Source of the DNA: Hyphococcus sp.
GTDB lineage: Bacteria; Pseudomonadota; Alphaproteobacteria; Caulobacterales; Parvularculaceae
Direction: 5' to 3'
NCBI GenBank assembly: GCA_028281665.1
Contig: JANQJK010000019.1
Coordinates: 1 to 64,000, forward strand
DNA: 64,000 nt
Shown one piece after another: positions 1 to 12,366 of this stretch; within the stretch, counting starts at the first letter, position 1, and each line of letters begins with the position of its first letter. The notes below the pieces were generated by a model. That model was not told the DNA's origin, ran no database searches, and saw nothing but the letters and a program-made list of their open reading frames with translations. The position numbers and the translations under genes were made by a program.

Positions 1-340
<340 letters not shown>

Positions 341-452
341 GTCCTCATGCGACGTTTTTCGGAACGGCGTTTGAGACACCCTAAACTCATGCGCGGCGAA
401 CGATCCGTCTCAGGATCGATTGCTTGCAAACAACATTAGACATTTCCGTGAC

Positions 453-494
453 CTTCATCCTGAGGAGCGCTGAAAAGCGCGTCTCGAAGGATGA
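453..494. repeat. Intergenic palindrome in the 23S-5S spacer
   Basis: The spacer holds an imperfect palindrome whose arms begin CATCCTGAG and end CTCGAAGGATG around an inner AGCGC/GCGC stem. Sequences of this kind (CATCCT..AAGGATG) are very common between genes in Alphaproteobacteria. Here it sits inside a transcribed rRNA spacer, so it would fold as RNA and could affect processing. Confidence 0.6.
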
Positions 495-508
495 CGTCTT
501 AAGAAGAA

Positions 509-531
509 CTGGATCCCGGCTTTCGCCGGGA
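509..531 (+). repeat. REP-like palindrome, family R, copy 1
   Basis: CTGGATCCCGGCTTTCGCCGGGA has a perfect 6-bp stem (CCCGGC/GCCGGG, 515-520 and 525-530) with a TTTC loop. Four more copies occur in the window, near 24052, 24164, 30259 and 30359. This copy is in the 23S-5S spacer directly before 5S copy 1. Confidence 0.75.
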
Positions 532-542
532 CGCTTCGCGCT

Positions 543-709
543 CTCGCATTTTCGAATCATCTTTGCCGGCCCGGTGGCTATGGCGGGGAGCCTCCACCCG
601 ATCCCATTCCGAACTCGGTCGTTAAAGTCCCCAGCGCCGATGGTACTACGTCTTAAGGCGTGGGAGAGTAGGTCGCCGCCAGGCCTGCAAAGCTGATTTG
701 AGACCCTTC
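543..709 (+). repeat. Direct repeat containing 5S copy 1
   Basis: This ~167-bp stretch matches 4806-5005, from CTCGCATTTTCGAAT upstream of 5S to ACCCTTC downstream of it. The matching includes about 25 bp of non-5S flank on each side, so the duplication covers more than the mature gene. The two copies bracket the AT-richer genes at 881-4732. Confidence 0.85.
568..685 (+). rRNA. rrf: 5S ribosomal RNA, copy 1 (standard length, 118 nt)
   Basis: The sequence aligns with the E. coli 5S core without gaps through the first 71 positions. Helix II pairs with the bulged A, loop C reads CCGAAC, and the 5' strand of loop E is CGATGGTA against GAGAGTAGG. Helix I pairs 568-577 with 676-685 and has one C-A mismatch (572 with 681) and one G-T pair. 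No clear intrinsic terminator follows, unlike copy 2, so transcription may run on into the downstream insert. This is the more conventional of the two 5S genes. Confidence 0.95.
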
Positions 710-880
710 ATTTTCGTATTTTCCATGTACCCAAATATACTAAAGTGGCGCGTGAATTTTTGCGCGATTCAATTTCGCAACCACGAGAGATTACTAAAAA
801 TATTATTTGACGCTGACGTAATTTGCGTTCTCGCACATGTAATATGGCGCTTATTTTCGTATGCGCCGAGGCGTTAGGTG

Positions 881-1588
881 TTATGGCCTTGCTTTACAAA
901 CGAAGTTGAAATGGCCGCAAAATTGCGCCAGGGCGGATACATATTCATGGTCCCCGCCACCGTGTCTCGCGACTTTTTTTCGCAATGACTGTGCAAAAAA
1001 GCCTCCATCCTCAAAAAATATGACCTTTTTTAGCTCTTCTTTCGGAACGCCTAGCATGTTCATCAAAGTTCGGATCGTAAGCGTAAGTCCGTCAGTGTAG
1101 GGTACGATCGCAAGAACTTCGAGCTTGTGCCGCTCGCATATCGCGTCAAATCCTATTGGCGTATAGTTGAATGTACTAAATCCATGATATGGTTCCATGA
1201 AGGAAACGCTGCCGCAAAAGATACCGCCATTCTTTAGGCATCGCCGAATTTCAGAAAAACTTACCTCCGGTTGGATGACGTGCTCCAAAGACTGCCAGGA
1301 CCATATCATGTCGAATGATTGATCGTTCCATGGCAACCGGGTTCCATCGTAGGAGTATTGTCCTTCTTCAACCGCGTATTGCTGGTTCTTTTTTCCATCT
1401 CGTGCGTAATTGATGCCTAACCAACGTAGCCCCGAATCACTCAGCAGATCGCGATGAGCGCCGGGACCGCAACCGAAGTCCAGAACTGAATTTAAATCTA
1501 TATCCGCTGATTTCTTTGCGTATTCTAAAACATCAATTGCATCGCGATGCGGCCAATACTGCAATTTTTTACCCAAGGCCGCTGTCAT
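881..1588 (-). CDS. Class I SAM-dependent methyltransferase
   Basis: The protein is 235 aa with a Methyltransf_11-type fold. Motif I (VLDFGCGPG) is near residues 36-44, a post-I acidic region follows, and WSWQSLEHV near residues 96-104 corresponds to the motif IV region that usually reads as an acidic dipeptide followed by LEH. Methyltransferases of this type occur in surface-glycan gene clusters and modify sugars or lipids; the substrate here is unknown. It reads against the rRNA operon and against the two following genes, so rrn read-through would be antisense to it. Codon use is AT-richer than the window average. The ATG at 1588 is the only clear start. Confidence 0.85.
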   Translation of the reverse strand: MTAALGKKLQYWPHRDAIDVLEYAKKSADIDLNSVLDFGCGPGAHRDLLSDSGLRWLGINYARDGKKNQQYAVEEGQYSYDGTRLPWNDQSFDMIWSWQSLEHVIQPEVSFSEIRRCLKNGGIFCGSVSFMEPYHGFSTFNYTPIGFDAICERHKLEVLAIVPYTDGLTLTIRTLMNMLGVPKEELKKVIFFEDGGFFAQSLRKKVARHGGGDHEYVSALAQFCGHFNFVCKARP

Positions 1589-2033
1589 GGGGCTAACTGG
1601 ACGGAAATCGCCTTCGAGCGCAAACAGGCGTTACGCGATATCGCTCATCATTGATTCAATTTCGACGTGAACATCCTGCATGAGTGTTCCTTTAACCCTT
1701 GCTTCAATTTAACGCATTCGTAAGTCGACATGAGATTTTGGTAGATTCGATCAGCGCATTTGACGTATGCCACATCGATTCGCCAGAGAACGTGCAGCGA
1801 TTTGAACAATTCTATCGGTAGAGTTTAACCGGTTGGCCGTGCTATGCAACGCTGCGGGCCTTCGAGGGCATTTGCCTGGTTTGTGGCGCCTTGTTCAAAT
1901 GAGCAGCGGCGATTAGTGCCTGATGATTTTGCGGCTGTAAAAGGTAATGTCCACCCGTAGATGCCTGGCCGGCGAAATTTTCGAGGGTAGCGATTTCACA
2001 CCGGTAAAAATAGTTTAGGCAAGTAGCCAATGA
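1589..2033. other. AT-rich intergenic stretch, no gene seen
   Basis: The 445 bp between the divergent methyltransferase and glycosyltransferase-like genes hold no convincing coding frame; a short minus-strand frame at 1842-2030 has no recognisable features. The stretch should contain the promoters of both flanking genes. I could not identify a clear -35/-10 pair. Confidence 0.6.
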
Positions 2034-3686
2034 TTGTCCGCTCTCGCCAAAATTACACTTTTAGGCTATTGGACGGCCTTCTCTTTGCTGCGATGCGCCG
2101 CTGGCTCAAAATGGGGAATTGAATTGCGCGAACGCCTTGAAAATGGGACTCAAGATACCGAGCAGCGACAACAACGGGACGAGCTAGATGCGCTTTTCGA
2201 GCTGTTTCTGGACCGAAAGCCAGCGGATCGGGAACTTGTAGAGTTATGCGATGTGGCGGGAGACGGTGATACCGCTGTTATCAATTTCTTGTTCGATCAT
2301 CCGGCGTACCGATTTAAGAATGCCTGTTATCCGAGCGACTACGTCGTACCCATTGAGAAAAACCATCCTATAACCTCTGACTTCTCGCCGCTGCATGTCG
2401 ATGTCGCATACCGTTTTTTGTTCGGGCGCACTGCGACGGACGCTGAATTATCCCAAGGCGTCGAGACATATAACAACACACGCGACTTCCGTCACTTCCT
2501 GTTCGCCAAACAAGAATTTGCAAAAGCGCGTTTTAAAAGACCCAACATTTCGGAGAATCGCCTGGGGCCCGTAGGTCACGAGCGGTTTCATCGCGCGGTA
2601 GCCGATATCGCGCATGAGTGCGAGGAAATTTTAGACCAGCTTGTCGATTTTGTTCGCTATATCGGAGACCGAAATTGGAAGGCCGAGGTATTAGCGCAGA
2701 AGCGCATTAAGATATCGCGATTGGCCAATATCGAAAGGCGTAATATCGCTATCATTGTGAAGCCGTCCTATCTGGGCGAACTGGATCGAGTGCTTCGAAG
2801 TGGTGAGCGTAATATTCGCACTTTCAGGTCTTCGCAGGAATTCTTTGATAGCGATTTCTGCAATGAGACGCACGTTGTTGTAATTAACAACAACTTTTTT
2901 CCGACCACGGAATTGCAATTAAGGTGGCGAAATTATCTAAAGGAGCCGGAGTCGCCGCTTGGTGTTCTTTGGTCGTACGATAATCATCACTCATTTGCGA
3001 ACACTATTATAACCCATAGTATTTTCGATGTGATTGTTCCGGCGCACGCAAATTATACAGATTATTTATTGACGACGCCGACAATTTTGTTGCCGGCCAC
3101 GCCATGCGGCTTGGCGCAATGGACGCCTGACGTTGTCATGGAGGGCTACGAGGCGTTCGGAAATGTTGAGCGTACCGACAAGCTTGATGGCGGGTATAAT
3201 CTATACTTCAATAGAAACGCCTACCGAAATGCGAAGATAGAAACGATTAGCGCAGGAATGCCGGAGTCGAACGTTCGCGGCGTCGTATTCAACGAGCAAC
3301 GATACTGGCAAAACAGTGACCTCGATAACCTCAAAGAATGGATGTCGCATAAAACATCTGTGGCTATACCGGTGAATAATGATCTGCCAATCAGGGTGTT
3401 TGACGCGCTCGCGGCGGGCCAAATTCCGCTTGTCCCTGGATGGCTCGGGGGTTTTGACTCGATTATTTCACCAGCATTGCAGCGTTCGTTGCCTATCGTA
3501 AAATTCCTCGACTATGACGTTTCGGAGATCAGGCGTGCGCACCGGAAAGCATTGAAATTATTTGATCAAGGCGGGGCTGAAGGAATCAAGCGGCGACGGG
3601 ATTATTGCCTGAACACGCATACGCTCAATCATCGGTACGAAGAAATTCTCACGAAAATTGAGAATTTGATCACAATTGATTCTTGA
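2034..3686 (+). CDS. Putative glycosyltransferase with N-terminal DUF4214-like segments
   Basis: The protein is about 550 aa. Residues ~45-180 hold two repeats resembling DUF4214/phycobilisome-linker-like modules (LFELFLDRKPADRELVEL and YRFLFGRTATDAELSQG, each followed by a PAYR or QEF-type end). These modules are often attached to polysaccharide glycosyltransferases. The C-terminal half resembles a GT-B acceptor/donor region, with PIRVFDALAAGQIPLVP near residue 455 like the ExxAxGxxPv motif of retaining transferases, although the usual glutamate is not obvious. The start is uncertain: TTG at 2034 gives this frame and no good ribosome site or in-frame ATG lies near it. The UDP-xylose synthase follows 56 bp downstream, so this enzyme could use UDP-xylose; that is inference. 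Composition is AT-rich. Confidence 0.65.
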   Translation: MSALAKITLLGYWTAFSLLRCAAGSKWGIELRERLENGTQDTEQRQQRDELDALFELFLDRKPADRELVELCDVAGDGDTAVINFLFDHPAYRFKNACYPSDYVVPIEKNHPITSDFSPLHVDVAYRFLFGRTATDAELSQGVETYNNTRDFRHFLFAKQEFAKARFKRPNISENRLGPVGHERFHRAVADIAHECEEILDQLVDFVRYIGDRNWKAEVLAQKRIKISRLANIERRNIAIIVKPSYLGELDRVLRSGERNIRTFRSSQEFFDSDFCNETHVVVINNNFFPTTELQLRWRNYLKEPESPLGVLWSYDNHHSFANTIITHSIFDVIVPAHANYTDYLLTTPTILLPATPCGLAQWTPDVVMEGYEAFGNVERTDKLDGGYNLYFNRNAYRNAKIETISAGMPESNVRGVVFNEQRYWQNSDLDNLKEWMSHKTSVAIPVNNDLPIRVFDALAAGQIPLVPGWLGGFDSIISPALQRSLPIVKFLDYDVSEIRRAHRKALKLFDQGGAEGIKRRRDYCLNTHTLNHRYEEILTKIENLITIDS

Positions 3687-3742
3687 TGCGCTGAAAGAAT
3701 GACATTGCGCATTCGGTGAGTCTGCTGGACTAGAGGGGTACT

Positions 3743-4732
3743 ATGACAAAGCATTCTGTTCATAATGGGGTGCCGGCGCCAAAAAGAGTTCTTGTGACAG
3801 GGGGCGCGGGATTTATCGGGTCGCATTTATGCGAGCGATTGCTTGAAAATGGCGACGAGGTTCTTTGCGTCGACAATTATTTTACTGGTTCTCGGGCAAA
3901 TATCTCCAGGTTTCTGGATCATCCAAATTTCGAAGTGCTTCGACACGATGTGACGTTCCCTCTGTTCGTCGAGGTCGATCAGATTTTCAACCTGGCATGT
4001 CCGGCGTCGCCTATCCATTATCAATACGACCCGGTGCAAACCCTAAAAACGAGCGTGCACGGCGCTATCAATATGCTCGGATTGGCCAAGCGAACCAATG
4101 CGCGCATATTGCAGGCGTCAACAAGCGAAGTTTACGGAAACCCGACCCAGCATCCGCAAACGGAATCATATTGGGGCAATGTCAATCCGCTTGGCCCGCG
4201 CGCTTGTTACGACGAAGGCAAACGCGCGGCCGAAACATTGTTCTTCGACTACCATCGACAACACGGTGTTGACGTCAAAGTTATTCGGATCTTCAATACT
4301 TACGGGCCTAACATGCACCCGGACGACGGACGTGTTGTTTCCAACTTTGTAATTCAGGCACTGTTGAATAAGCCGATTACAATTTACGGCGAGGGCGAGC
4401 AAACGCGATCGTTCTGTTACGTAGATGATTTGGTGGACGGTATGCTGCGTATGATGAACGAAAGCGGGCCGGATTTTATGGGGCCTGTAAATTTGGGCAA
4501 TAACAATGAGATAACAATTCGGGAGTTGGCGGACTCAATTATCGAACTGACGTCTTCGAAATCTGAGCTTCAGAAGAAACCATTGCCGCAGGATGATCCG
4601 GAACGCCGCCGCCCGGATTTGTCTCTTGCCGAAGAAAAACTTGGGTGGGCGCCTCGAACCGATTTGAAAAAGGGCCTTGCGACGACTATTGAGTATTTTG
4701 AGCAGTACTTGCGCCGGCATGGCGCCGTTTAG
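3743..4732 (+). CDS. UDP-glucuronate decarboxylase (UDP-xylose synthase)
   Basis: The enzyme makes UDP-xylose from UDP-glucuronate in the cytoplasm for surface polysaccharide or glycoprotein synthesis. This 329-aa protein is an extended short-chain dehydrogenase: NAD-binding [10 protein letters not shown] near residues 16-25, [27 protein letters not shown] and the catalytic CYDEGKR (YxxxK). [10 protein letters not shown] and [16 protein letters not shown] are hallmark strings of the UXS family and distinguish it from UDP-glucose epimerases. The length is typical for the bacterial soluble form. It probably shares a transcript with the preceding glycosyltransferase-like gene. It ends 98 bp before 5S copy 2. 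Confidence 0.95.
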
Positions 4733-4805
4733 CGAAGTTGCGCTGAACGCGCGGTTTGAACAGTGCTCGCCCTCTGCGCGTCGCGGCCACAATCCAGCGT
4801 AGAGG

Positions 4806-5005
4806 CTCGCATTTTCGAATTATCGTTGCCGGCCTGGCGGCTATTGCGCGGAGCCTCCACCGTTAAATGAATTCGTTTAACCCCAATTCCGAACTCGGTC
4901 GTTAAAGTCCCCAGCGCGCTCGCGGCTCGTCGCCGCTCGCGGTACGTCTTAAGGCGTGGGAGAGTAGGTCGCCGCCAGGCCTGCAAAGCTGATTTGCGAC
5001 CCTTC
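4806..5005 (+). repeat. Direct repeat containing 5S copy 2
   Basis: This is the second copy of the 5S-containing duplication (partner 543-709). It is longer because of two internal 20-nt insertions. Outside the 5S it matches the first copy for about 25 bp upstream and 24 bp downstream, with a few substitutions. Confidence 0.85.
4831..4981 (+). rRNA. Expanded or degenerate 5S rRNA, copy 2 (151 nt)
   Basis: Helix I is perfectly paired over 10 bp (4831-4840 with 4972-4981), better than in copy 1. Two insertions are present. At helix III/loop C a near-perfect palindrome, GTTAAATGAATTCGTTTAAC (4862-4881), replaces four bases. At the loop E/helix IV 5' strand a 20-nt GC-rich block (4918-4937) with an internal GCGGC/GCCGC stem is added and four core bases are lost. 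The second insertion is flanked by a 9-bp direct repeat CGCTCGCGG (4917-4925 and 4934-4942). The loop E 5' strand is altered (CGATGGTA becomes CGCGGTA), and helix II gains a C-C mismatch or re-pairs. It sits next to the rrn terminator. It may be a pseudogene or a functional expanded 5S; I cannot decide. Confidence 0.8.
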
Positions 5006-5017
5006 TTCGGTCATTCG

Positions 5018-5055
5018 AAACCGCGCCTTTTCAGCAATGAATGGCGCGGTTTTTT
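5018..5055 (+). terminator. Intrinsic terminator of the rRNA operon
   Basis: A perfect stem CCGCGCC/GGCGCGG (5021-5027 and 5043-5049), extended by AAA/TTT, is followed by a run of six T (5050-5055). It lies 36 bp after the expanded 5S copy and is the only strong terminator near either 5S, so it probably marks the original end of the operon. Confidence 0.9.
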
Positions 5056-5158
5056 ATGGCTGGCGTCTTGTCCGCCAAATGTCCTGCCAGACCCGCCAAT
5101 TGACGCCGCGGTCGGAACCGGTAATGAAACGATCCGAGAATATTTGCGACAGGGGCAG

Positions 5159-5908
5159 ATGATGGCGCGACGCGCCCGTTCTTGTATTCAGGGGGCCGCC
5201 GCGGCGCTGGGGGCGCTGTGCATTGTCGCCTGTTCGCAGCCGCAACCCTCTGCGGGCGAGGGCGGCGCTCCGGCGAACCGTTCCGGCGACACCGCGCCGG
5301 CGGCCATCGAACCGGAGGACGAGATCAATCTCGATCTCTGGCTGGAGCGGTTGGAGGTTGGAAGCCGCGAGCTTTATTCCGCACGCGCCGCGGTGGTCGA
5401 CGCTGTCGGATTGCAACCCGGCGACTGGGTCGCCGATATCGGCTCGGGCACGGGGCTTTATACGTTGCTCTTTGCCGAAGAGATCGGCCCGACGGGACAG
5501 GTCTTTGCCGAGGACATCGAACCCTTGTTCCTCGATCTTGTTACGCGCCGCGCGGCCGACGCCGATCTCAACAATATCAGCGCCGTCCTCGGCCGCGAAG
5601 ACGATGTTACGCTGCCGAATGAATCGATCGATGTCGTATTTATCGCCGACACCTATCATTACTTCGACGATCGCGAAGCGGTGATGCGGTCGGTCTTCCG
5701 TGCCCTGAAGCCCGGCGGTTCGCTGATTCTGGTTGAGTTCGACATCGCGCCGGGAGAGGAGCGCGCCGACTACAAATCCCATGTGCGCTTCGGCAAGGAC
5801 GCCGTGATTTCCGAGCTGGAGTTTGTCGGGTTCAAATACGAAGGCGAAACGCAGGTCGAAGGCCTTGACGAAAATTACTTCGTCACGCTCGTCAAACCTG
5901 CCGAGTAA
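5159..5908 (+). CDS. Putative lipoprotein class I SAM-dependent methyltransferase
   Basis: The start at 5159 (or 5162) is chosen because AGGGG lies just upstream and the N-terminus then reads as a lipoprotein signal: MMARRAR, a hydrophobic stretch, and lipobox IVAC near residue 25 followed by a disordered SQPQPSAGEGG linker. The rest is a Methyltransf domain: motif I VADIGSGTGLYT, FAEDIEP, and VIFMF-like strand VVFIADTYHYF followed by LKPGGSLILVEFDI. It resembles signal-peptide-bearing predicted methyltransferases found in Proteobacteria. Where such an enzyme would find S-adenosylmethionine outside the cytoplasm is unclear, so it may act differently. A longer frame begins at 4994 but would run through the terminator. 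Confidence 0.8.
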   Translation: MMARRARSCIQGAAAALGALCIVACSQPQPSAGEGGAPANRSGDTAPAAIEPEDEINLDLWLERLEVGSRELYSARAAVVDAVGLQPGDWVADIGSGTGLYTLLFAEEIGPTGQVFAEDIEPLFLDLVTRRAADADLNNISAVLGREDDVTLPNESIDVVFIADTYHYFDDREAVMRSVFRALKPGGSLILVEFDIAPGEERADYKSHVRFGKDAVISELEFVGFKYEGETQVEGLDENYFVTLVKPAE

Positions 5909-5918
5909 AAGAGTTTCG

Positions 5919-6995
5919 TCAGTCGAGCGGGCAGACCATGACGTGCCCGTCAAAGACAGCGCCGACAACCAGCGTGTCGTCAGATGCCGCGCCGACCGAT
6001 GAGCCGTTGATTTCGCCATTCAGCGAAACGAATTTGTTTTCGCTCGTCCCCGTTTGCGGGTCGAGCCGCAGCACATGGCTCGGCGCAATGGCGGCGGGAT
6101 CTTCAGCATGCTGCAAAAATTTCGTGGTGTTGGGATGCCCGGCGATCCAGAGCGAGCCGTCGGGCGCCACATCGATGTTATCGGGCGCCGTATTGACCCG
6201 CCATCGCTTTTTCAGTGTCAGTTCGCCGCTTGCCCGGTCACGGGCATATGCGGATATTCTTCGTTTGACGATCTCGGCGACATAGATTTCGCCGGCGTCA
6301 AGGGACGGTGCGACGCCGTTCGCATAGGCAAGGCCCCGCGCCGCAGACCGTCCCTCAACGCCGTCGAAATAGACGACGTCGGTGAGGGGCAGGGCGCCGT
6401 AAACTTCCGCAACGCCGAGAATGCCGGTTTCGTACCGCCGGTCGTTGCTTGCATAGAACTGCCGGTCGCCGACTGCGGCAACGTCGTTCGGCGAATACAT
6501 GGCGTCGAATGAAACCGTCTCCGTGTGGAACAACGCGCCGTCCGCGCCGACATCGAACATTTCCACCGCTTCCACGCCGTCGGCGCGGTGATTGACGACA
6601 AACAGCCTGCGTGCGCCGTCGTCGCCGCGCCACAGACTGATGCCGTGGGGGGAAAAATCCGCCGGCGCATCCTGAGAAATCAGCCGGGGCGTTAATGTCC
6701 GGTCGGTGAGGTCAATGAGGTAGATGTCGCCGCGCGGACGATCATCGTCGGTCCCCGCATACCAGCCCCGGCGTTCGAATGTAGAGACGAATACCTGCTG
6801 CGCCGCGTCGTCGATCTCGACGTCTTCCGTGCCCGGCGCAACGTCGACATGCCGGCATTCCCCGACCAGCAGGGGATCGAGGTCGTTGAAGACGCCGATC
6901 GCCGGCAGAATGTGAAACGCCATCCAGGCCGCAATGGCGAGGACGGCGCCCAGAACAACGACGCCAATTGACTTCACGTAACCCGGTTCTCCCAC
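5919..6995 (-). CDS. Paraoxonase/arylesterase-like beta-propeller (SMP-30 superfamily), membrane-anchored
   Basis: The 358-aa protein has an uncleaved-looking N-terminal hydrophobic helix (residues ~9-30) followed by a six-bladed propeller. Motifs match the calcium sites of serum paraoxonases: DVEIDD, PHGISLWRG, SPNDVAAVG, LAYANGV and APDNIDVAPDGSLWIAGHP, the last carrying the Asp-Asn pair. Family members hydrolyse lactones and aryl esters; the substrate here is unknown. The start is a GTG at 6995; another GTG at 6977 is also possible. It converges on the lipoprotein methyltransferase with a 10-bp gap. Confidence 0.82.
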   Translation of the reverse strand: MGEPGYVKSIGVVVLGAVLAIAAWMAFHILPAIGVFNDLDPLLVGECRHVDVAPGTEDVEIDDAAQQVFVSTFERRGWYAGTDDDRPRGDIYLIDLTDRTLTPRLISQDAPADFSPHGISLWRGDDGARRLFVVNHRADGVEAVEMFDVGADGALFHTETVSFDAMYSPNDVAAVGDRQFYASNDRRYETGILGVAEVYGALPLTDVVYFDGVEGRSAARGLAYANGVAPSLDAGEIYVAEIVKRRISAYARDRASGELTLKKRWRVNTAPDNIDVAPDGSLWIAGHPNTTKFLQHAEDPAAIAPSHVLRLDPQTGTSENKFVSLNGEINGSSVGAASDDTLVVGAVFDGHVMVCPLD

Positions 6996-7370
6996 CCCCG
7001 ATTGACGCCATTGTCACAAAGGAACCCCCGCCCGGCAAGCGGGCGAGGGTTGTAATCATGATGACGATTTCGCGCCGGGCTTGTCTTAGGTTTCGGCGGC
7101 CGCTGTGGAAAAGTCCAGAAAATAGTAACAAAAACAATCTATTAAAGATGGGTCTCCGGGCGCGCCGGCGCTGAGCCGCCCGGACGTGCGAATACGTATT
7201 CGGGCAATCGGGGTTTGTGGCGGCCCGCCGCTTGACGATCGCGGGAAAAGGTTTACGTAACCGCCATCTCCCCGGTTATCCAAGCATATGAGATCCTCGC
7301 CCTGCTGCGGCGCCCGACCCCCTATGCTCTCTGGCCGGCGGCGTGAGCGACAAAACATTGGCGGCCCATT
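6996..7370. other. Intergenic region upstream of secE
   Basis: The 375 bp between the divergent paraoxonase-like gene and secE contain a GC-rich hairpin near 7027-7045 (CGCCCG/CGGGCG). No gene was found. The tRNA-Trp that often precedes secE in bacteria is absent. Confidence 0.6.
7232..7259 (+). promoter_or_regulatory. Possible sigma-70-type promoter for secE-nusG
   Basis: TTGACG at 7232-7237 is followed after 16 bp by TACGTA at 7254-7259. The -35 is good and the -10 is weak. Position about 110 bp upstream of secE is plausible. This is a by-eye match only. Confidence 0.3.
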
Positions 7371-7658
7371 ATGGCGAATAAAAAGAAGAACCAAACCGGC
7401 GGCTCCGGCGCTTCGAAAACAATCGAAGGCAAGGCCGACGAACAGCCCCGGAAACAGAAAAAGACCAGCCCCTTCGAGTTCCTTCAGCAGGTTCGCGCGG
7501 AAGGTTCGAAAGTGACCTGGACATCGCGGAACGAAACCATGGTGTCGACGGTCATGGTGTTGATCATGGTCGCGATCATGGCGCTCTTCTTCTTCCTCGT
7601 GGATCAAGTGTTGCGTTACGGGGTCTGCAACCTGCTGCCGATTGAATGCGGCGGCTAG
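7371..7658 (+). CDS. secE: Preprotein translocase subunit SecE
   Basis: SecE is the small essential subunit of the SecYEG channel in the inner membrane. The 95-aa protein has a hydrophilic Lys-rich N-terminus, the conserved amphipathic segment with EFLQQVRAEGSKVTWTSRNE, and one membrane helix (VMVLIMVAIMALFFFLVDQVL). It is a short single-helix form. nusG follows after 37 bp, the usual partner order in bacteria. Confidence 0.96.
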   Translation: MANKKKNQTGGSGASKTIEGKADEQPRKQKKTSPFEFLQQVRAEGSKVTWTSRNETMVSTVMVLIMVAIMALFFFLVDQVLRYGVCNLLPIECGG

Positions 7659-7695
7659 ATTTCATTATTGACCAGACAAGACCGGATCCCCTGCA

Positions 7696-8229
7696 ATGAC
7701 CGCGAATTGGTATATCGTCCACGCATACTCCAACTTTGAAAAGAAAGTTGCCGACGCGATATTGCTGTCGGCGAAGGAAAAAGGCCTCGACCAGTTTATC
7801 GAGGAAGTGTTCGTGCCGACCGAAGACGTCACCGAGGTGCGCCGCGGCCGGAAGGTCAACACCGAGCGCCGCTTCTTTCCCGGTTACGTGCTGGTCAAGA
7901 TGGATCTCAACGATCAGATTTATCATCTGGTCAAGGATACGCCGAAAGTGACCGGTTTCCTTGGCTCGGGCAACAAGCCGATGCCGGTGCCGCAAAAGGA
8001 GATCGACCGTATTCGCGGCGTCATCGAAGAAGGGGAAACGCGGGTCGGCCCGTCAATCACCTTCGAGATTGGCGAAACCGTGCGCGTCACCGACGGTCCG
8101 TTTGCGTCCTTTTCCGGCGTCGTCGAAGATGTGGACGAAGAGAACTACCGCGTCAAAGTCGCCGTATCGATTTTCGGACGGGCAACGCCGGTGGAGCTGG
8201 AATTCACCCAGGTCGAGAAATCGAGCTAG
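7696..8229 (+). CDS. nusG: Transcription termination/antitermination factor NusG
   Basis: NusG binds RNA polymerase and links it to Rho or ribosomes. The 177-aa protein has the NGN domain (WYIVHAYSNFEKKVA, FFPGYVLVKM, TGFLGSGNKPMPV) and a C-terminal KOW domain (GETVRVTDGPFASFSGVVEDVD). It follows secE. The ribosomal protein genes rplK-rplA that usually come next are missing; instead a DNA glycosylase gene reads in the opposite direction and overlaps the nusG end by 4 bp. Confidence 0.98.
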   Translation: MTANWYIVHAYSNFEKKVADAILLSAKEKGLDQFIEEVFVPTEDVTEVRRGRKVNTERRFFPGYVLVKMDLNDQIYHLVKDTPKVTGFLGSGNKPMPVPQKEIDRIRGVIEEGETRVGPSITFEIGETVRVTDGPFASFSGVVEDVDEENYRVKVAVSIFGRATPVELEFTQVEKSS

Positions 8230-8768
8230 GGTTGGTTGCGAGATGGATGCGCGGGCAGACAATCTGCTTTGCGCAATATGCGATCGATTCCAAGCCAGAT
8301 ATCTTTATTCCACCATCGGGTCGCGAGACCTGAGGGTGAACACAAAATGTACAGCTGAGTGCTTCCGACAGGGTTGTCTTGCAGGCCGTACTCAATTTTC
8401 GATGTTGATTTTCCCAAAAAGATAGCGCCGGCTTTCTTGCTGGTGAACGCCCACACTTGCGGTTGATAGCGTTCAATTTTCTCTTTGGTGGCGTCAATAT
8501 CAAAGTCGGACATCGTCAAGTCAGCGTCATTTCCATGCGCTGTCTTTGATAAATCCGTCAGACCAATTCCCAGAGCAAGCAGTTTCCTGTATTCCTGCGG
8601 CTGAAACTGGCGCGGCGTCAGGCCGATTTCGTGGAGCGTCGGCCAGAATTTGTTTCCGGGCTTCGCGTAGTACGCCTTTTCCTGGAATGACTTGGTCCCC
8701 AGCGCCGTACCGCAAAAGACTATTCGCAAATCAGGCGCAAGCAAATCAGGGATGAGTTTTTGGCTCAT
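8226..8768 (-). CDS. Mismatch-specific uracil/thymine DNA glycosylase (Mug/TDG family)
   Basis: Enzymes of this family excise uracil or thymine mispaired with guanine. The 180-aa protein shows the family's N-terminal core RIVFCGTALGTKSFQEK followed by YYAKPGNKFWPTLHEIGLT, and a later SPSGLATRWW strand-like motif. The active-site position that is Asn in E. coli Mug (GINPG) here reads GTALG, as in a distinct subgroup of the family, so its specificity may differ. It is tail to tail with nusG, sharing 4 bp. The region is slightly AT-richer than its neighbours, which may indicate later arrival. Confidence 0.85.
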   Translation of the reverse strand: MSQKLIPDLLAPDLRIVFCGTALGTKSFQEKAYYAKPGNKFWPTLHEIGLTPRQFQPQEYRKLLALGIGLTDLSKTAHGNDADLTMSDFDIDATKEKIERYQPQVWAFTSKKAGAIFLGKSTSKIEYGLQDNPVGSTQLYILCSPSGLATRWWNKDIWLGIDRILRKADCLPAHPSRNQP

Positions 8769-8793
8769 GCCCCACAGATAAGGCTGGATTTCG

Positions 8794-9174
8794 TTAAAGG
8801 TCCTTTAAGTTGCCTGATCGCCGTCCGCGCCGGCGCAAAATATCGGCGAGACCTTCATTGCTGCGCAAGTCATCGTTTGCGGTTTCTTCGTCTTCTTCCT
8901 TTTCTTCTTCATCCTTATCCGGATGGGGGTCGCTTTTGCGCAGCGACCGCGTCATCCAGCGCGGCAGTTTTCGCTGAAGCCATTTGAGCCGGCGGTCGAG
9001 CCAGCCCCAGCGCCGTCGGATGAAGCGCAATGTCGCCGGCGAAATCGTCGCGAGCAACAGAAAGCCGACGAAAATCAACGGCAGTCCGAGCGGGACCGGC
9101 GTGATCGCGGTTACCATGCCGATAAGGATCAGGACGATCGCGAAAGCTGCGACGATGAATCTGAAAATTGTCAC
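8794..9174 (-). CDS. Small membrane protein, paralogue of the next gene
   Basis: The 126-aa protein has two closely spaced hydrophobic helices (residues ~4-25 and ~28-47, with a PVPLGLPLI turn), then a basic segment RFIRRRWGWLDRRLKWLQRKLP and a charged acidic tail. The start is GTG at 9174, overlapping the stop of the upstream gene by 4 bp (GTGA), which indicates translational coupling. The pattern recalls small PGPGW-type membrane proteins. Function unknown. Confidence 0.7.
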   Translation of the reverse strand: MTIFRFIVAAFAIVLILIGMVTAITPVPLGLPLIFVGFLLLATISPATLRFIRRRWGWLDRRLKWLQRKLPRWMTRSLRKSDPHPDKDEEEKEEDEETANDDLRSNEGLADILRRRGRRSGNLKDL

Positions 9175-9506
9175 GCGTCATCCCCCTTTCTCGCTGCGCC
9201 GGCGTCCGCATCGGACCGCCCGTCCGCATCCCCGTTCTGATCCTGCCCCGCCGGGTCCGTTTCCACAATAACTTCGCGAACGACGCCGCTCGCCCGCGGC
9301 GCGGCCAGCCGCACCAGCTTGTCGAACCAGCGCCATTTGCGCCGCATGGCGCGAATGACCGGGCGGAAGGCGGGATTGGCTCCGGCGATCATGAACAGGC
9401 CAATGACCGCCAGCGGCGCGCCTACGGGGAGGGGCGAAACGGCCGCAATCACCCCGTAGATGAAAAGGACAACGCCGAGCGCCGTTGTTGCGATGCGGGC
9501 AATCAC
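9171..9506 (-). CDS. Small membrane protein, paralogue of the downstream gene
   Basis: The protein shares the layout of its downstream neighbour: a hydrophobic helix, a turn (SPLPVGAPLAVIG), a second helix, and a basic stretch AMRRKWRWFDKLVRLAAP with a polar tail. The two look like a tandem duplication. The start is uncertain; GTG at 9506 gives about 111 aa, beginning at the first helix. The frame stays open upstream to 9758 but would overlap the divergent HD gene. Function unknown. Confidence 0.6.
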   Translation of the reverse strand: MIARIATTALGVVLFIYGVIAAVSPLPVGAPLAVIGLFMIAGANPAFRPVIRAMRRKWRWFDKLVRLAAPRASGVVREVIVETDPAGQDQNGDADGRSDADAGAARKGDDA

Positions 9507-9620
9507 CGGCGCGCCGCCCGCGCTCGGTTGTGTCGATGCCGCTTGTACATGCCGCCCGTGCGCTCCTATTCTCCCGAAAGCATAAATGCCCGGCGTCCAT
9601 CGTAGAACAGGAGGCGTAAT

Positions 9621-10223
9621 ATGCCAGATCATGGAGATCCGTCCGCGCCGCGCGCCAGGTTCAAGGCGATGACCGAGGGCACGCAGGAAGACTGGCAGAT
9701 CATCGGCGGCCAGTATCTTCCCTTTGCCGCGGCGGGAGGAAAGCGGATCCTCGATCATTTACGCCTGCTTGACGGCGACTATGGCGGCTTTCCCGTCGAC
9801 CGGCTGGAACACTGCCTGCAAACGGCGACCCGCGCCCACCGCGACGGCCGCGACGAGGAATATGTCGTCTGCGCCCTGCTGCACGATATCGGCGACACGC
9901 TCGGCGCCTACAACCACCCAGATATCGCCGCGGCGATCCTCCAACCGTTCGTCTCGGAGGCGAACCACTGGATGGTCAAGCATCACGGCATATTTCAGGG
10001 GTATTATTTCTTCCACCATCTCGGCATGGACAGAAACATGCGTGATGAATTCAAAGACCATCCGCATTATCAGTACACCGCCGATTTCTGTCACAAATAC
10101 GATCAGACAGCGTTTGATGCCGACTATGACACCATGCCGCTCGAAGCGTTCGAACCCATGGTGATGAAGCTTTTTACGGCGCCGAAGAACTCAATGTATT
10201 CCGCGGCGTCTCTTGAGGAATAA
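9621..10223 (+). CDS. HD-domain protein, inositol-oxygenase-like
   Basis: The 200-aa protein has the metal-binding HD pattern: LEHCLQTATRAHRDG (H64), LLHDIGDTLG (H88-D89), NHP and KHHGIFQGYYFFHH. This arrangement matches a family related to myo-inositol oxygenase and PhnZ-type mixed-valent diiron oxygenases as much as to phosphohydrolases. The reaction is therefore open. A strong ribosome site AGGAGG (9609-9614) is 6 bp before the ATG. It stands alone, divergent from the small membrane proteins. Confidence 0.75.
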   Translation: MPDHGDPSAPRARFKAMTEGTQEDWQIIGGQYLPFAAAGGKRILDHLRLLDGDYGGFPVDRLEHCLQTATRAHRDGRDEEYVVCALLHDIGDTLGAYNHPDIAAAILQPFVSEANHWMVKHHGIFQGYYFFHHLGMDRNMRDEFKDHPHYQYTADFCHKYDQTAFDADYDTMPLEAFEPMVMKLFTAPKNSMYSAASLEE

Positions 10224-10300
10224 GCGCTGAACGCGCTCGCTCCGGCGATAGCTTGTTTGCGGCGATGCGGCTGCCGCGGGTTGCAAAATGCGCCGCCCAT

Positions 10301-11008
10301 TCACGCCCTGATCCGCCGGTCGTAGAAAAACTTGTAATCTTTCATGCACGCGTCGGCGGCGGCTTCCTGCGCCGGGGTGAGTTCAATCGTCCTCTCTTCA
10401 TACGGCTTGAACCCGGTCGACGCTCTGACGGCGTCATACCAGTGCGGCGCCCAGACGCCGTCGCTTTCGCGTGGGCCCGCCGGCCATGACAGCATCGCCG
10501 GGTGAAAGGCGATGCCGAGGGCGGCGCAAAGCGCCCGCAACATCCCTTCGGGATTCTTCAGGACATCGGCGGCGTCAACAACGGGGCAGTCGCCGCCTGC
10601 GCGCGCGTCGACCTCGCGCTGTACGCGGTAGCTCTCTGCAATCGGCGCGACGTCATCATACTTTTTTGCATAGGATGCGACCATGGCGCGCGGGTCGCGG
10701 ATCAGGTGAAAAACGCGCGCGCCGTCGATCCAGCCGAGAGGCGCGTCGCCGGCAAAGTGAAACGCGATGTTTTTCTGGAACTGAATGTTATCGTTCCGCG
10801 CCGCTTCCAGCTGTTTGGCGACATCGGACCAGTCGTCGGACTGCGCGGCCAGTACAGCCTCTCGCATAGGATGCGCCGCGCCGCTTTCTTTCAGGTAGCA
10901 AGCGTAAAAAGGCTCGTCGAGAACCACCGTATCCGGACGGTTTTCAAAGGCGCGCATCATCGTTGTCGAAATGTTGCGCGGGCCGGAAAACATCGCGATG
11001 ACCGTCAT
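10301..11008 (-). CDS. Sulfotransferase-like P-loop protein
   Basis: The 235-aa protein starts with a PAPS-binding-like loop, MFSGPRNISTTMMRAFENRPD (residues ~6-26), and has VFHLIRDPRAMVASY near 99-113, matching the 3'-phosphate-binding motif of sulfotransferases. Proteins of this subfamily are fused to a class IV aminotransferase in plants, and a class IV aminotransferase gene lies 1.4 kb upstream on the same strand here. No sulfate acceptor is evident. Two genes (a small membrane protein and a LOG protein) lie between, all on the minus strand, so this may be one transcription unit. Confidence 0.75.
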   Translation of the reverse strand: MTVIAMFSGPRNISTTMMRAFENRPDTVVLDEPFYACYLKESGAAHPMREAVLAAQSDDWSDVAKQLEAARNDNIQFQKNIAFHFAGDAPLGWIDGARVFHLIRDPRAMVASYAKKYDDVAPIAESYRVQREVDARAGGDCPVVDAADVLKNPEGMLRALCAALGIAFHPAMLSWPAGPRESDGVWAPHWYDAVRASTGFKPYEERTIELTPAQEAAADACMKDYKFFYDRRIRA

Positions 11009-11086
11009 GGCGTCGCCTGTAGCTTGATCTTCGCAAGGGGAGACCGGATCTGCGTTCCGGTCGCGCGGGGCAATCTGCCCGAAACG

Positions 11087-11497
11087 CTAACGCAACCTCG
11101 GCGGCGCCTTCGGCTGTGCGTGGTCTGCGACCGATTCAAGCTTCGGCGCCGGCATATGGGGAACGTCCGCGCCCATCTCCTCCATCATGGCGATAATCCG
11201 CCGCGAGGAAACGGCGATCTCCTTGGCGCCTTCGGTTTTCTGCCGGTTGAGCGCCGACTGGTTCTCCAGCGCGTCAACGGCCTTGTACGCCTGCTCGACC
11301 GCTGAATTCAGGTTGCGGGTAAGATCCGGCAGGTCGGGATCGTCTTCAAGGAGTTTTTGCTCGGCGACCTTGGTGAGCTTGGCCATTTCCTCGCCGATTT
11401 CCTCGACGCGCCGCCGCATCCGCCGGCCGGTCGTCATGGACCCGAAAACCACGCCAATAAGCAGACCGGCAATTGCCGCGCCGGCGCCGATAAACAT
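11087..11497 (-). CDS. Membrane-anchored coiled-coil protein of unknown function
   Basis: Starting at the ATG at 11497, the ~136-aa protein begins with a hydrophobic glycine-rich helix (FIGAGAAIAGLLIGVVFGS), then basic RRMRRR and a long charged helix with coiled-coil character. The frame is open to a TTG at 11542. No known domain is recognised. It sits between the sulfotransferase-like and LOG genes on the same strand. Confidence 0.6.
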   Translation of the reverse strand: MFIGAGAAIAGLLIGVVFGSMTTGRRMRRRVEEIGEEMAKLTKVAEQKLLEDDPDLPDLTRNLNSAVEQAYKAVDALENQSALNRQKTEGAKEIAVSSRRIIAMMEEMGADVPHMPAPKLESVADHAQPKAPPRLR

Positions 11498-11580
11498 CAC
11501 ATCGGTAAACACCGCAAACGCCCCATTTTTACACCCACACAACGGTATTGTGGATATTTCCCGGCGCTTTGCAAGGCGCG

Positions 11581-12366
11581 TCAGATGAGGGCGTTGCGCG
11601 CCGCATGGTCAGCGGCTTCGAGGCCGTTTTCGAGAAGCCGCGACCAGGCCTCTTCCGGCGTCGAGGCGTACTGAAAGAGGTCAAGATCCTCCGGACCGAT
11701 CATGCCGTGATCGGCGATATGCCGGAAATTGACGACCTCGGTCCAATAGGACTTGTCGTAAAGCACGATCGGCAGCTTCGGCGCCTTCTTCGTCTGCACG
11801 AGCGTCAGGAGTTCGAACAGTTCGTCGAACGTGCCGAACCCGCCGGGGAAGATCACCAGCGCCGCCGCGCGCATGGCGAAGTGCATCTTCCGCATGCCGA
11901 AATAATGAAACTGGAAGGTCAGGTCCGGCGTGGAATAGGGGTTGGGCTCCTGTTCGAAGGGAAGGCGGATATTGAAACCGATAGACGGCGCGCCGGCGTC
12001 CGCGGCGCCGCGGTTCGCCGCCTCCATAATGCCGCCGCCGCCGCCGGTTGCGATGACATTGTCCCGCCGGCCCTTGTGATCCTTGTCGAGGGCGCCGCCG
12101 CGTTCCGACGCGATGCGCGCAAATTCTCTCGCCGCATCGTACCAGCGCGTATGTTCCCCGTCGCCGTTTTCGACCGTGCGGGCGGAACCGAAGACGACGA
12201 TGGTTGATTTGACGCCCCATTTCCTCAGCGCCTGTTCCGCCTTCTCGTATTCCAGCAGAAACCGCACGCCGCGCTGGGGATCGTCGAGGAGAAAATCCTG
12301 ATCGAGCGCCGCAAGCCGGTAAGCGGGCGACGCCATCTGGTCTGCATTGGGCTTTTTCTTGCTCAT
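11581..12366 (-). CDS. LOG-family protein (TIGR00730, nucleoside-5'-monophosphate phosphoribohydrolase type)
   Basis: The 261-aa protein has the family signature PGGFGTFDELFELLTLVQTKK, plus IVVFGSART and GGGGGIMEAANRGA for the Rossmann-like nucleotide site. LOG enzymes release bases from nucleoside monophosphates; this longer form is often annotated as lysine-decarboxylase-like, which is misleading. The ATG at 12366 overlaps the aminotransferase stop in an ATGA tetramer, so translation is coupled. An upstream in-frame ATG at 12396 would lie inside the aminotransferase gene and is less likely. Confidence 0.9.
   Translation of the reverse strand: MSKKKPNADQMASPAYRLAALDQDFLLDDPQRGVRFLLEYEKAEQALRKWGVKSTIVVFGSARTVENGDGEHTRWYDAAREFARIASERGGALDKDHKGRRDNVIATGGGGGIMEAANRGAADAGAPSIGFNIRLPFEQEPNPYSTPDLTFQFHYFGMRKMHFAMRAAALVIFPGGFGTFDELFELLTLVQTKKAPKLPIVLYDKSYWTEVVNFRHIADHGMIGPEDLDLFQYASTPEEAWSRLLENGLEAADHAARNALI

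Follow-up and report, generated by a model that had tools for sequence, protein, structure and literature searches.

What places a small set of genes between two 5S-like units at the 3′ end of an rRNA (rrn) operon, and does that position say something about the operon or about the genes? The locus was analyzed in a 64,000-nucleotide stretch of a Hyphococcus sp. contig, hereafter the window, together with the equivalent sites of related genomes.

Layout of the rrn end and its island

The contig starts within a 23S rRNA gene, whose 3′ end occupies positions 1-342 of the plus strand (Rfam RF02541, 355.7 bits). It is followed on the same strand by a 5S unit with its flanks (copy 1, 543-709; Rfam RF00001, 87.8 bits), in which the canonical mature 5S spans 570-684. 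After 4.1 kb of AT-richer DNA the 167-bp unit recurs, again on the plus strand, as 4806-5005 (copy 2), in ungapped repeat blocks of 89, 97 and 92% identity. The duplication of about 170 bp proposed by the first-pass annotation is thus borne out, and so is the difference in composition: in 1-kb windows, the GC content is 0.48-0.49 across 501-4500 vs 0.54-0.64 across 5001-12000. Copy 2 is followed on the plus strand by a strong intrinsic terminator (about 5020-5055; CCGCGCC, a 15-nt loop, GGCGCGG and TTTTTT), confirmed by a terminator scan and probably inherited from the ancestral rrn 3′ end; the order is the same at the empty site L022. Beyond it lies a conserved flanking methyltransferase gene, MT2 (5162-5908, plus strand), present in 23 of the 28 genus genomes (E ≤1e-40). 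The layout read earlier (23S end, 5S, AT-richer genes, second 5S-like unit, terminator) is therefore real. The wording that the island is embedded inside an rRNA operon was too strong: two 5S-like units do flank it, but one is canonical, the sole such 5S detected in the assembly and the sole one above the Rfam cut-off, and the other is a degenerate second 5S.

Three genes make up the island. The first (881-1588) is on the minus strand, convergent with the rrn operon, and codes for a SAM-dependent methyltransferase (Pfam Methyltransf_11, 2.9e-16), as had been called. The third (3743-4732, plus strand) codes for a UDP-glucuronate decarboxylase, in agreement with the earlier call of a UDP-xylose synthase (UXS); its best PDB match is 2b69 (E 5.7e-120), and it matches the Pfam families GDP_Man_Dehyd and Epimerase. 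Between them, the plus-strand gene at 2034-3686 codes for a rare protein of 550 amino acids that had been labeled glycosyltransferase-like (GT). It has no match in Pfam, NCBIfam, PHROGs or PDB. The label is kept on the strength of distant tblastn matches in 3 plasmids, which cover 32-59% of the protein at 26-31% identity; the best of them (28%) falls within an annotated glycosyltransferase. A structure prediction had a mean pLDDT of 36 and was not used. The gene had no match in 61 other genomes of the family or in 384 other genomes of the class sample. The cargo of the island probably consists of a few genes acquired from outside, two of which apparently serve sugar building.

Cargo between 5S and MT2 across the genus

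The first-pass annotation had suggested looking for an empty site in relatives. The closest relative sampled by CarB (G023, 94%) has the 23S-5S-terminator order without an island. The distance from 5S to MT2 could be followed in 21 genus genomes; it is about 1.2-7 kb in 16 of them and <0.4 kb in 5. The annotation had also allowed that the island genes might ancestrally lie downstream of the operon without a second 5S. Relatives do carry cargo there in that way, but the cargo genes differ. When the 54 cargo proteins of the 16 loci were compared all against all, at least one family recurred elsewhere for 9 loci, and 7 loci, among them the window, had no family in common with any other. The Pfam scan took in 30 of the 54 proteins and returned MBOAT, fatty-acid-hydroxylase, GT2, GT87, FkbM methyltransferase, CoA-transferase, sulfotransferase and S9 peptidase families, as well as Acyl_transf_3 in three loci, in two of them as SGNH fusions; 8 of the 30 had no Pfam match, and neither an integrase nor a transposase was found among the 30. 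Four of the 16 loci have an MBOAT module in common, and a fifth has one of its families; some of the cargo may therefore be a long-standing inheritance and not a recent gain.

A hotspot of horizontal gene transfer (HGT) without mobility genes is recognized by cargo that varies among related genomes while the core flanks stay the same, as is seen here. Since relatives carry other genes or nothing at this site, we read it as a place of gene turnover and not as a special ribosomal operon, and consider it likely, though not secure, that the segment between the rrn 5S and MT2 is a gene-turnover hotspot of the genus. Cargo would come and go through homologous recombination, for which the conserved 23S/5S end would provide one anchor and MT2 or a second 5S the other. 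Recombination between copy 1 and copy 2 would delete the cargo and restore the 23S-5S-terminator order. The excision route proposed earlier could make use of the 54 identical nt that copy 2 has in common with copy 1 (4943-4996).

The first-pass annotation also proposed that the island is an extension of the operon coupled to growth. Putative rrn transcripts would cross it up to the terminator after copy 2, and the GT and UXS proteins would be made in step with rRNA. The arrangement of terminators is in line with this, one being present after copy 2 and none after copy 1 in the main scan, which misses stems with a T run at L030 and L085. A second scan lists a weak stem at 749-766, after copy 1, which counts against read-through; that scan gave 8 sites vs 7.3 expected by chance, and it omits the terminator of copy 2 because it allowed loops of 3-8 nt only. 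A consensus scan places all 6 promoter-like sites of positions 1-5300 on the minus strand (5.5 expected by chance), which also favors transcription from the rrn side. Against it, a read-through transcript would first be antisense to the methyltransferase gene, and the arrangement is not general in the genus: a terminator stands directly after 5S in 13 of the 20 scanned (in G006 and G012, two other species, it follows the normal 5S), and the first cargo gene runs with the rrn operon in 9 of the 16 genus loci and faces it in 7. Read-through as a general way of tying cargo expression to growth rate is not upheld, and for the window itself we regard it as improbable.

The second 5S copy and its hairpins

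Copy 2 had been annotated as a second 5S gene. It is a 5S-derived unit with shared flanks, and its 5S-like body (4833-4980) is recognized by a 5S profile of the genus (E 1.3e-40), but its Rfam RF00001 score of 23.4 bits is below the gathering score of 38. It is not an ordinary 5S gene, and its score is low because part of loop C and the loop E/helix IV region have given way to two hairpins, missed earlier. The insertions amount to 17 and 16 alignment columns and are able to pair internally. Hairpin 1 (4862-4881, plus strand) is the palindrome GTTAAATGAATTCGTTTAAC, which replaces part of loop C; it folds better than chance (z −5.9 for 4855-4886) and has a homologue in G006. Hairpin 2 (4915-4942, plus strand), defined from the alignment, folds alone no better than chance (z −1.0 for 4910-4945).

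Copy 2 of the window retains both 5S ends. Its differences from copy 1 are unevenly spread, with 6 in the first 56 nt and 0 in the 54 nt at 4943-4996. Of the 15 columns that distinguish the two normal 5S units, 14 show in copy 2 of the window the same letter as in copy 1 of the window. In G006, of 6 comparable columns, 3 agree with its own copy 1, 1 with the window and 2 with neither. We infer that gene conversion has acted between the 5S copies, with weak support in G006, where 3 of the 6 columns match, and that copy 2 has lost its ribosomal function. Copy 1 would then serve the ribosome, and copy 2, beside MT2 and the old terminator, would make no ribosomal 5S; with its two expansion-segment hairpins it would drift, yet still trade sequence with copy 1.

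Among the window and 30 other loci searched with the genus 5S profile, distal 5S remnants were restricted to the window, G006 (E 3.6e-6) and G012 (E 5e-5), the last of which retains only a 3′ remnant. The hairpin motif occurs in 2 of the 28 genus genomes, once in each and adjoining MT2 in both; the bare palindrome is found in the same two among 62 family genomes, and the hairpin pattern in 398 order genomes matched these two and, with 3 mismatches, one more. With a single occurrence per carrier and two carriers in genus and family alike, a mobile repeat was rejected. A slightly shorter exact pattern gave 0 occurrences in viral contigs and 1 in genome contigs, in a record taken as G006. A phage origin of copy 2 was rejected for lack of a phage match. 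A plasmid origin was likewise rejected: among 15 of the 67 matched plasmid records, 17-18% of the query was matched, in the conserved 3′ part. In an Rfam 5S census of 150 order genomes that admitted matches to E 0.1, G000 alone had an expanded 5S of low score; the stricter filters of the census lose weak matches, and the 33 genomes that gave no 5S are uninformative. In the CarB tree the hairpin carriers fall into different clades, so vertical descent would need several losses; transfer of the hairpinned element between lineages is equally possible. In this tree the G000-G023 pair has a support of 0.69, the G002 row is a longer open frame whose long branch is not trusted, the rows of G012, G018, G001 and G005 are partial, and G011 had no CarB match.

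Could the hairpinned 5S be a functional element, acting as a structured non-coding RNA or, at the DNA level, as a folded site that directs the exchange of cargo? G006 carries it at the equivalent place, with different cargo alongside, and the two species have equal insertions at equal positions. Between the two, stem 1 differs by a compensatory double change of A-T to G-C and by a single change of G-T to G-C, and in the fold of the window copy the outer helix is paired throughout. On the other side, one pair of stem 1 is broken in G006, whose hairpinned copy has lost both 5S ends; the folds of the whole elements are no more stable than those of shuffled sequences (z −0.98 and +0.95); and the distribution is as sparse as described above. 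Such a function is unlikely, more so than read-through. Its boldest form, in which a folded site or a small RNA derived from 5S would be kept next to the operon to capture and release cargo and the rrn end would act as a gene-exchange port, strikes us as very unlikely; if it held, modules of this kind would also include the 5S remnants of Peptococcaceae and Pseudoalteromonas.

Finally, an assembly artefact joining two rrn ends at 5S is the least credible reading: the contig begins within 23S, the assembly is a draft of 28 contigs, and no 23S match is found elsewhere in it (so that its rrn operons cannot be counted), but only one 5S exceeds the cut-off, the DNA 3′ of copy 2 agrees with the gene order of an empty-site relative, and the separate genome G006 has the same two-5S order and hairpins on one contig.

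Comparison with known systems

A search of titles and abstract openings found no published report of this locus, which is no proof of absence. The turnover hotspot is like the HGT hotspots without mobility genes in the passages of a 2017 study that describe them (PMC5635113), in its variable cargo, its conserved flanks and the lack of integrases and transposases in the 30 proteins scanned. Unlike those hotspots, the one here has an rrn 3′ end as one flank and, in some genomes, a 5S copy at its distal edge. The locus documents a likely gene-turnover hotspot where an rrn operon ends.

Copy 2 is similar to remnants of 5S that carry expansion segments, known from Peptococcaceae and Pseudoalteromonadaceae (Stepanov and Fox 2021, PMC7812874). 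In the parts of that survey that treat them, they are read as possible pseudogenes, and the expansion sites given for 5S rRNA include loop C and helix IV. As in those remnants, copy 2 has a 5S-like core with large self-pairing insertions and follows a normal 5S in the distal position of the operon, here after 4.1 kb of cargo. The remnants described there lack one or both ends and have a putative terminator ahead of them, whereas the window copy has both ends (the G006 copy has neither) and only the weak stem stands after copy 1; separation of the normal and expanded 5S by protein-coding cargo is a further difference. The word Alphaproteobacteria is absent from the survey's main text, so that hairpin-bearing 5S copies are now found in a group unnamed there. 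They raise the question of why shared hairpins persist in an apparently dispensable 5S of two clades while, in the window, the surrounding 5S body follows its own lineage. A functional counterpart, as that survey describes it, is the 5S of Halococcus morrhuae, which has a large paired insertion beside loop E and is the sole 5S of the cell; here, in contrast, the expanded 5S coexists with a normal one and has parts of loops C and E replaced.

Gene content between the two 5S units

The window begins within a 23S rRNA gene (partial, 1-342), followed by a canonical 5S gene (copy 1, 570-684). The unit 543-709 is repeated at 4806-5005, and between the two lie genes for a methyltransferase (881-1588, minus strand), a 550-amino acid glycosyltransferase-like protein (2034-3686) and a UDP-glucuronate decarboxylase (3743-4732). 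As the first-pass annotation had stated, this island is AT-richer than its surroundings (GC 0.48-0.49 between both 5S units versus 0.54-0.64 downstream). The 550-amino acid protein had no match in Pfam, NCBIfam, PHROGs or PDB, and relatives were absent from 61 other family genomes and 384 other class-sample genomes; it shares 26-31% identity with proteins of three plasmids, the best match lying within an annotated glycosyltransferase. In the 23S-5S spacer (441-523), a hammerhead-like Rfam match of 21 bits, below the gathering threshold of 52, is probably due to chance.

The same annotation placed two 5S genes around the island. The duplication of the unit was confirmed, but copy 2 (body 4833-4980) differs from a normal 5S: it reached 23.4 Rfam bits, short of the gathering score of 38, and carries two insertions. 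In the alignment to copy 1, a palindromic hairpin (hairpin 1, 4862-4881) substitutes part of what we take to be loop C, and the second insertion (hairpin 2, 4915-4942) substitutes what is presumably the loop E/helix IV region. The latter can fold as a hairpin, yet no better than shuffles. Between the copies there are six differences within the first 56 nt, one mismatch in the 35 positions of the middle block (603-637) and none across 54 nt (4943-4996).

A variable site between 5S and MT2

A conserved methyltransferase gene, MT2 (5162-5908, plus strand), flanks the locus and is present in 23 of 28 genus genomes, although it does not share a contig with the 5S in every one of them. The 5S-MT2 stretch was read in 21 genomes (the window, 17 loci L022-L038, with the L038 5S truncated by a contig end, and L080, L081 and L082). 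The distance was below 0.4 kb in five (G023, G002, G015, G012 and G010) and ∼1.2-7 kb in 16. The empty site sought in relatives was found in G023, which pairs with the window genome, G000, in the CarB tree (support 0.69).

Thirty cargo proteins were searched against Pfam. The matches included MBOAT, fatty-acid hydroxylase, Acyl_transf_3 with or without SGNH, GT2, GT87, FkbM methyltransferase, CoA-transferase, sulfotransferase, S9 peptidase, endonuclease I, AraC-type regulators and TPR proteins; eight proteins had no match, and none matched an integrase or transposase. An all-against-all comparison of 54 proteins from 16 loci revealed a module, common to L023, L024, L025 and L031, that encodes an MBOAT acyltransferase with a partner protein and a pair of fatty-acid-hydroxylase-like proteins (Pfam names from L023). 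It lies between 5S and MT2, and L026 also has one of these families. Lesser sharing linked L024/L026, L030/L034 and L035/L038. Since nine of the 16 loci have a family in common with another locus and seven, including the window, have none, the cargo may be partly old and is partly turned over.

Beyond MT2, a 358-amino acid gene (5919-6995, minus strand), which may be beta-propeller-like (a working label), precedes two genes presumed to be secE and nusG. Among 20 rrn-end loci it had a tblastn match in L023 only, and none in the closest relative (L022).

Transcription and rrn number

A terminator scan (false calls in 6/1100 shuffles) agreed with the earlier observation of no terminator after copy 1 and one after copy 2; a second scan added a weak stem after copy 1 (749-766), at chance rate. 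Read-through from the rRNA operon (rrn) is possible in the window. That it is a design of the locus was not borne out: a terminator directly follows the 5S in 13 of 20 relatives, and the first cargo gene, co-directional with the rrn in 9/16 loci, opposes it in 7/16, window included. In a separate scan, L030 and L085 had a stem and T run after the 5S.

The operons of the assembly could not be counted, because only one 5S exceeded the cut-off and the genome search gave no 23S match, missing even the window's own 23S fragment. It is likely that there is one rrn operon, given the single 5S of the closed, single-contig genus genome G004. Two full-scoring 5S genes were observed in G003, at L027 (G003:C12) and L039 (G003:C32:221-335). 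The latter is divergent (83% for the 5S against that of the window, 86% for the 23S end), and hence may represent contamination or an rrn of foreign origin.

Hairpin-expanded 5S units and known systems

A genus 5S-unit profile, run over the window's first 8 kb and 30 loci, detected distal 5S remnants in three only: the window (E 1.3e-40), G006 (E 3.6e-6) and G012 (E 5e-5). The G006 remnant adjoins MT2, lacks both 5S ends and has both hairpins at matching positions; its cargo is unlike that of the window (an S9 peptidase and a small protein), and a terminator follows the normal 5S. Relative to the window, stem 1 of G006 has one double-sided A-T to G-C change, one G-T to G-C change and one broken pair. 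By eye, G012 retains the 5S 3′ end alone, followed by a terminator. G006 and G012 lie, with near-empty G010, in a clade (0.98) separate from G000.

The normal 5S unit of the window differs from that of G006 at 15 columns. Window copy 2 follows its own lineage at 14 and has a third letter at one; G006 copy 2 has letters at six, matching its own copy 1 at three (40, 50, 83), the window at one (162, poorly aligned) and neither at two. Both copies thus have the hairpins in common, whereas the 5S body of the window tracks its lineage, as the G006 body does weakly. Either gene conversion with the functional 5S or exchange of the hairpin segments would account for this combination.

We conclude that the locus is a known kind of hotspot with an unusual anchor and an unusual boundary, the latter a hairpin-expanded 5S that is probably non-ribosomal. 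The strangest point is the occurrence of the same hairpin insertions in two clades, so that a small chance remains that the hairpinned 5S is a functional element.

No published account of the window locus was found among titles and the beginnings of abstracts. The relevant parts of Stepanov and Fox 2021 (PMC7812874), whose main text does not contain the word Alphaproteobacteria, describe 5S-like remnants with large insertions at rrn distal ends in Peptococcaceae and Pseudoalteromonadaceae, and propose that they may be pseudogenes. Those of Oliveira et al. 2017 (PMC5635113) deal with hotspots that lack recognizable mobile elements and whose flanking core genes recombine frequently. As far as these parts of the two papers go, the window locus unites features of both, an expanded 5S remnant (PMC7812874) and a hotspot without recognizable mobile elements (PMC5635113).
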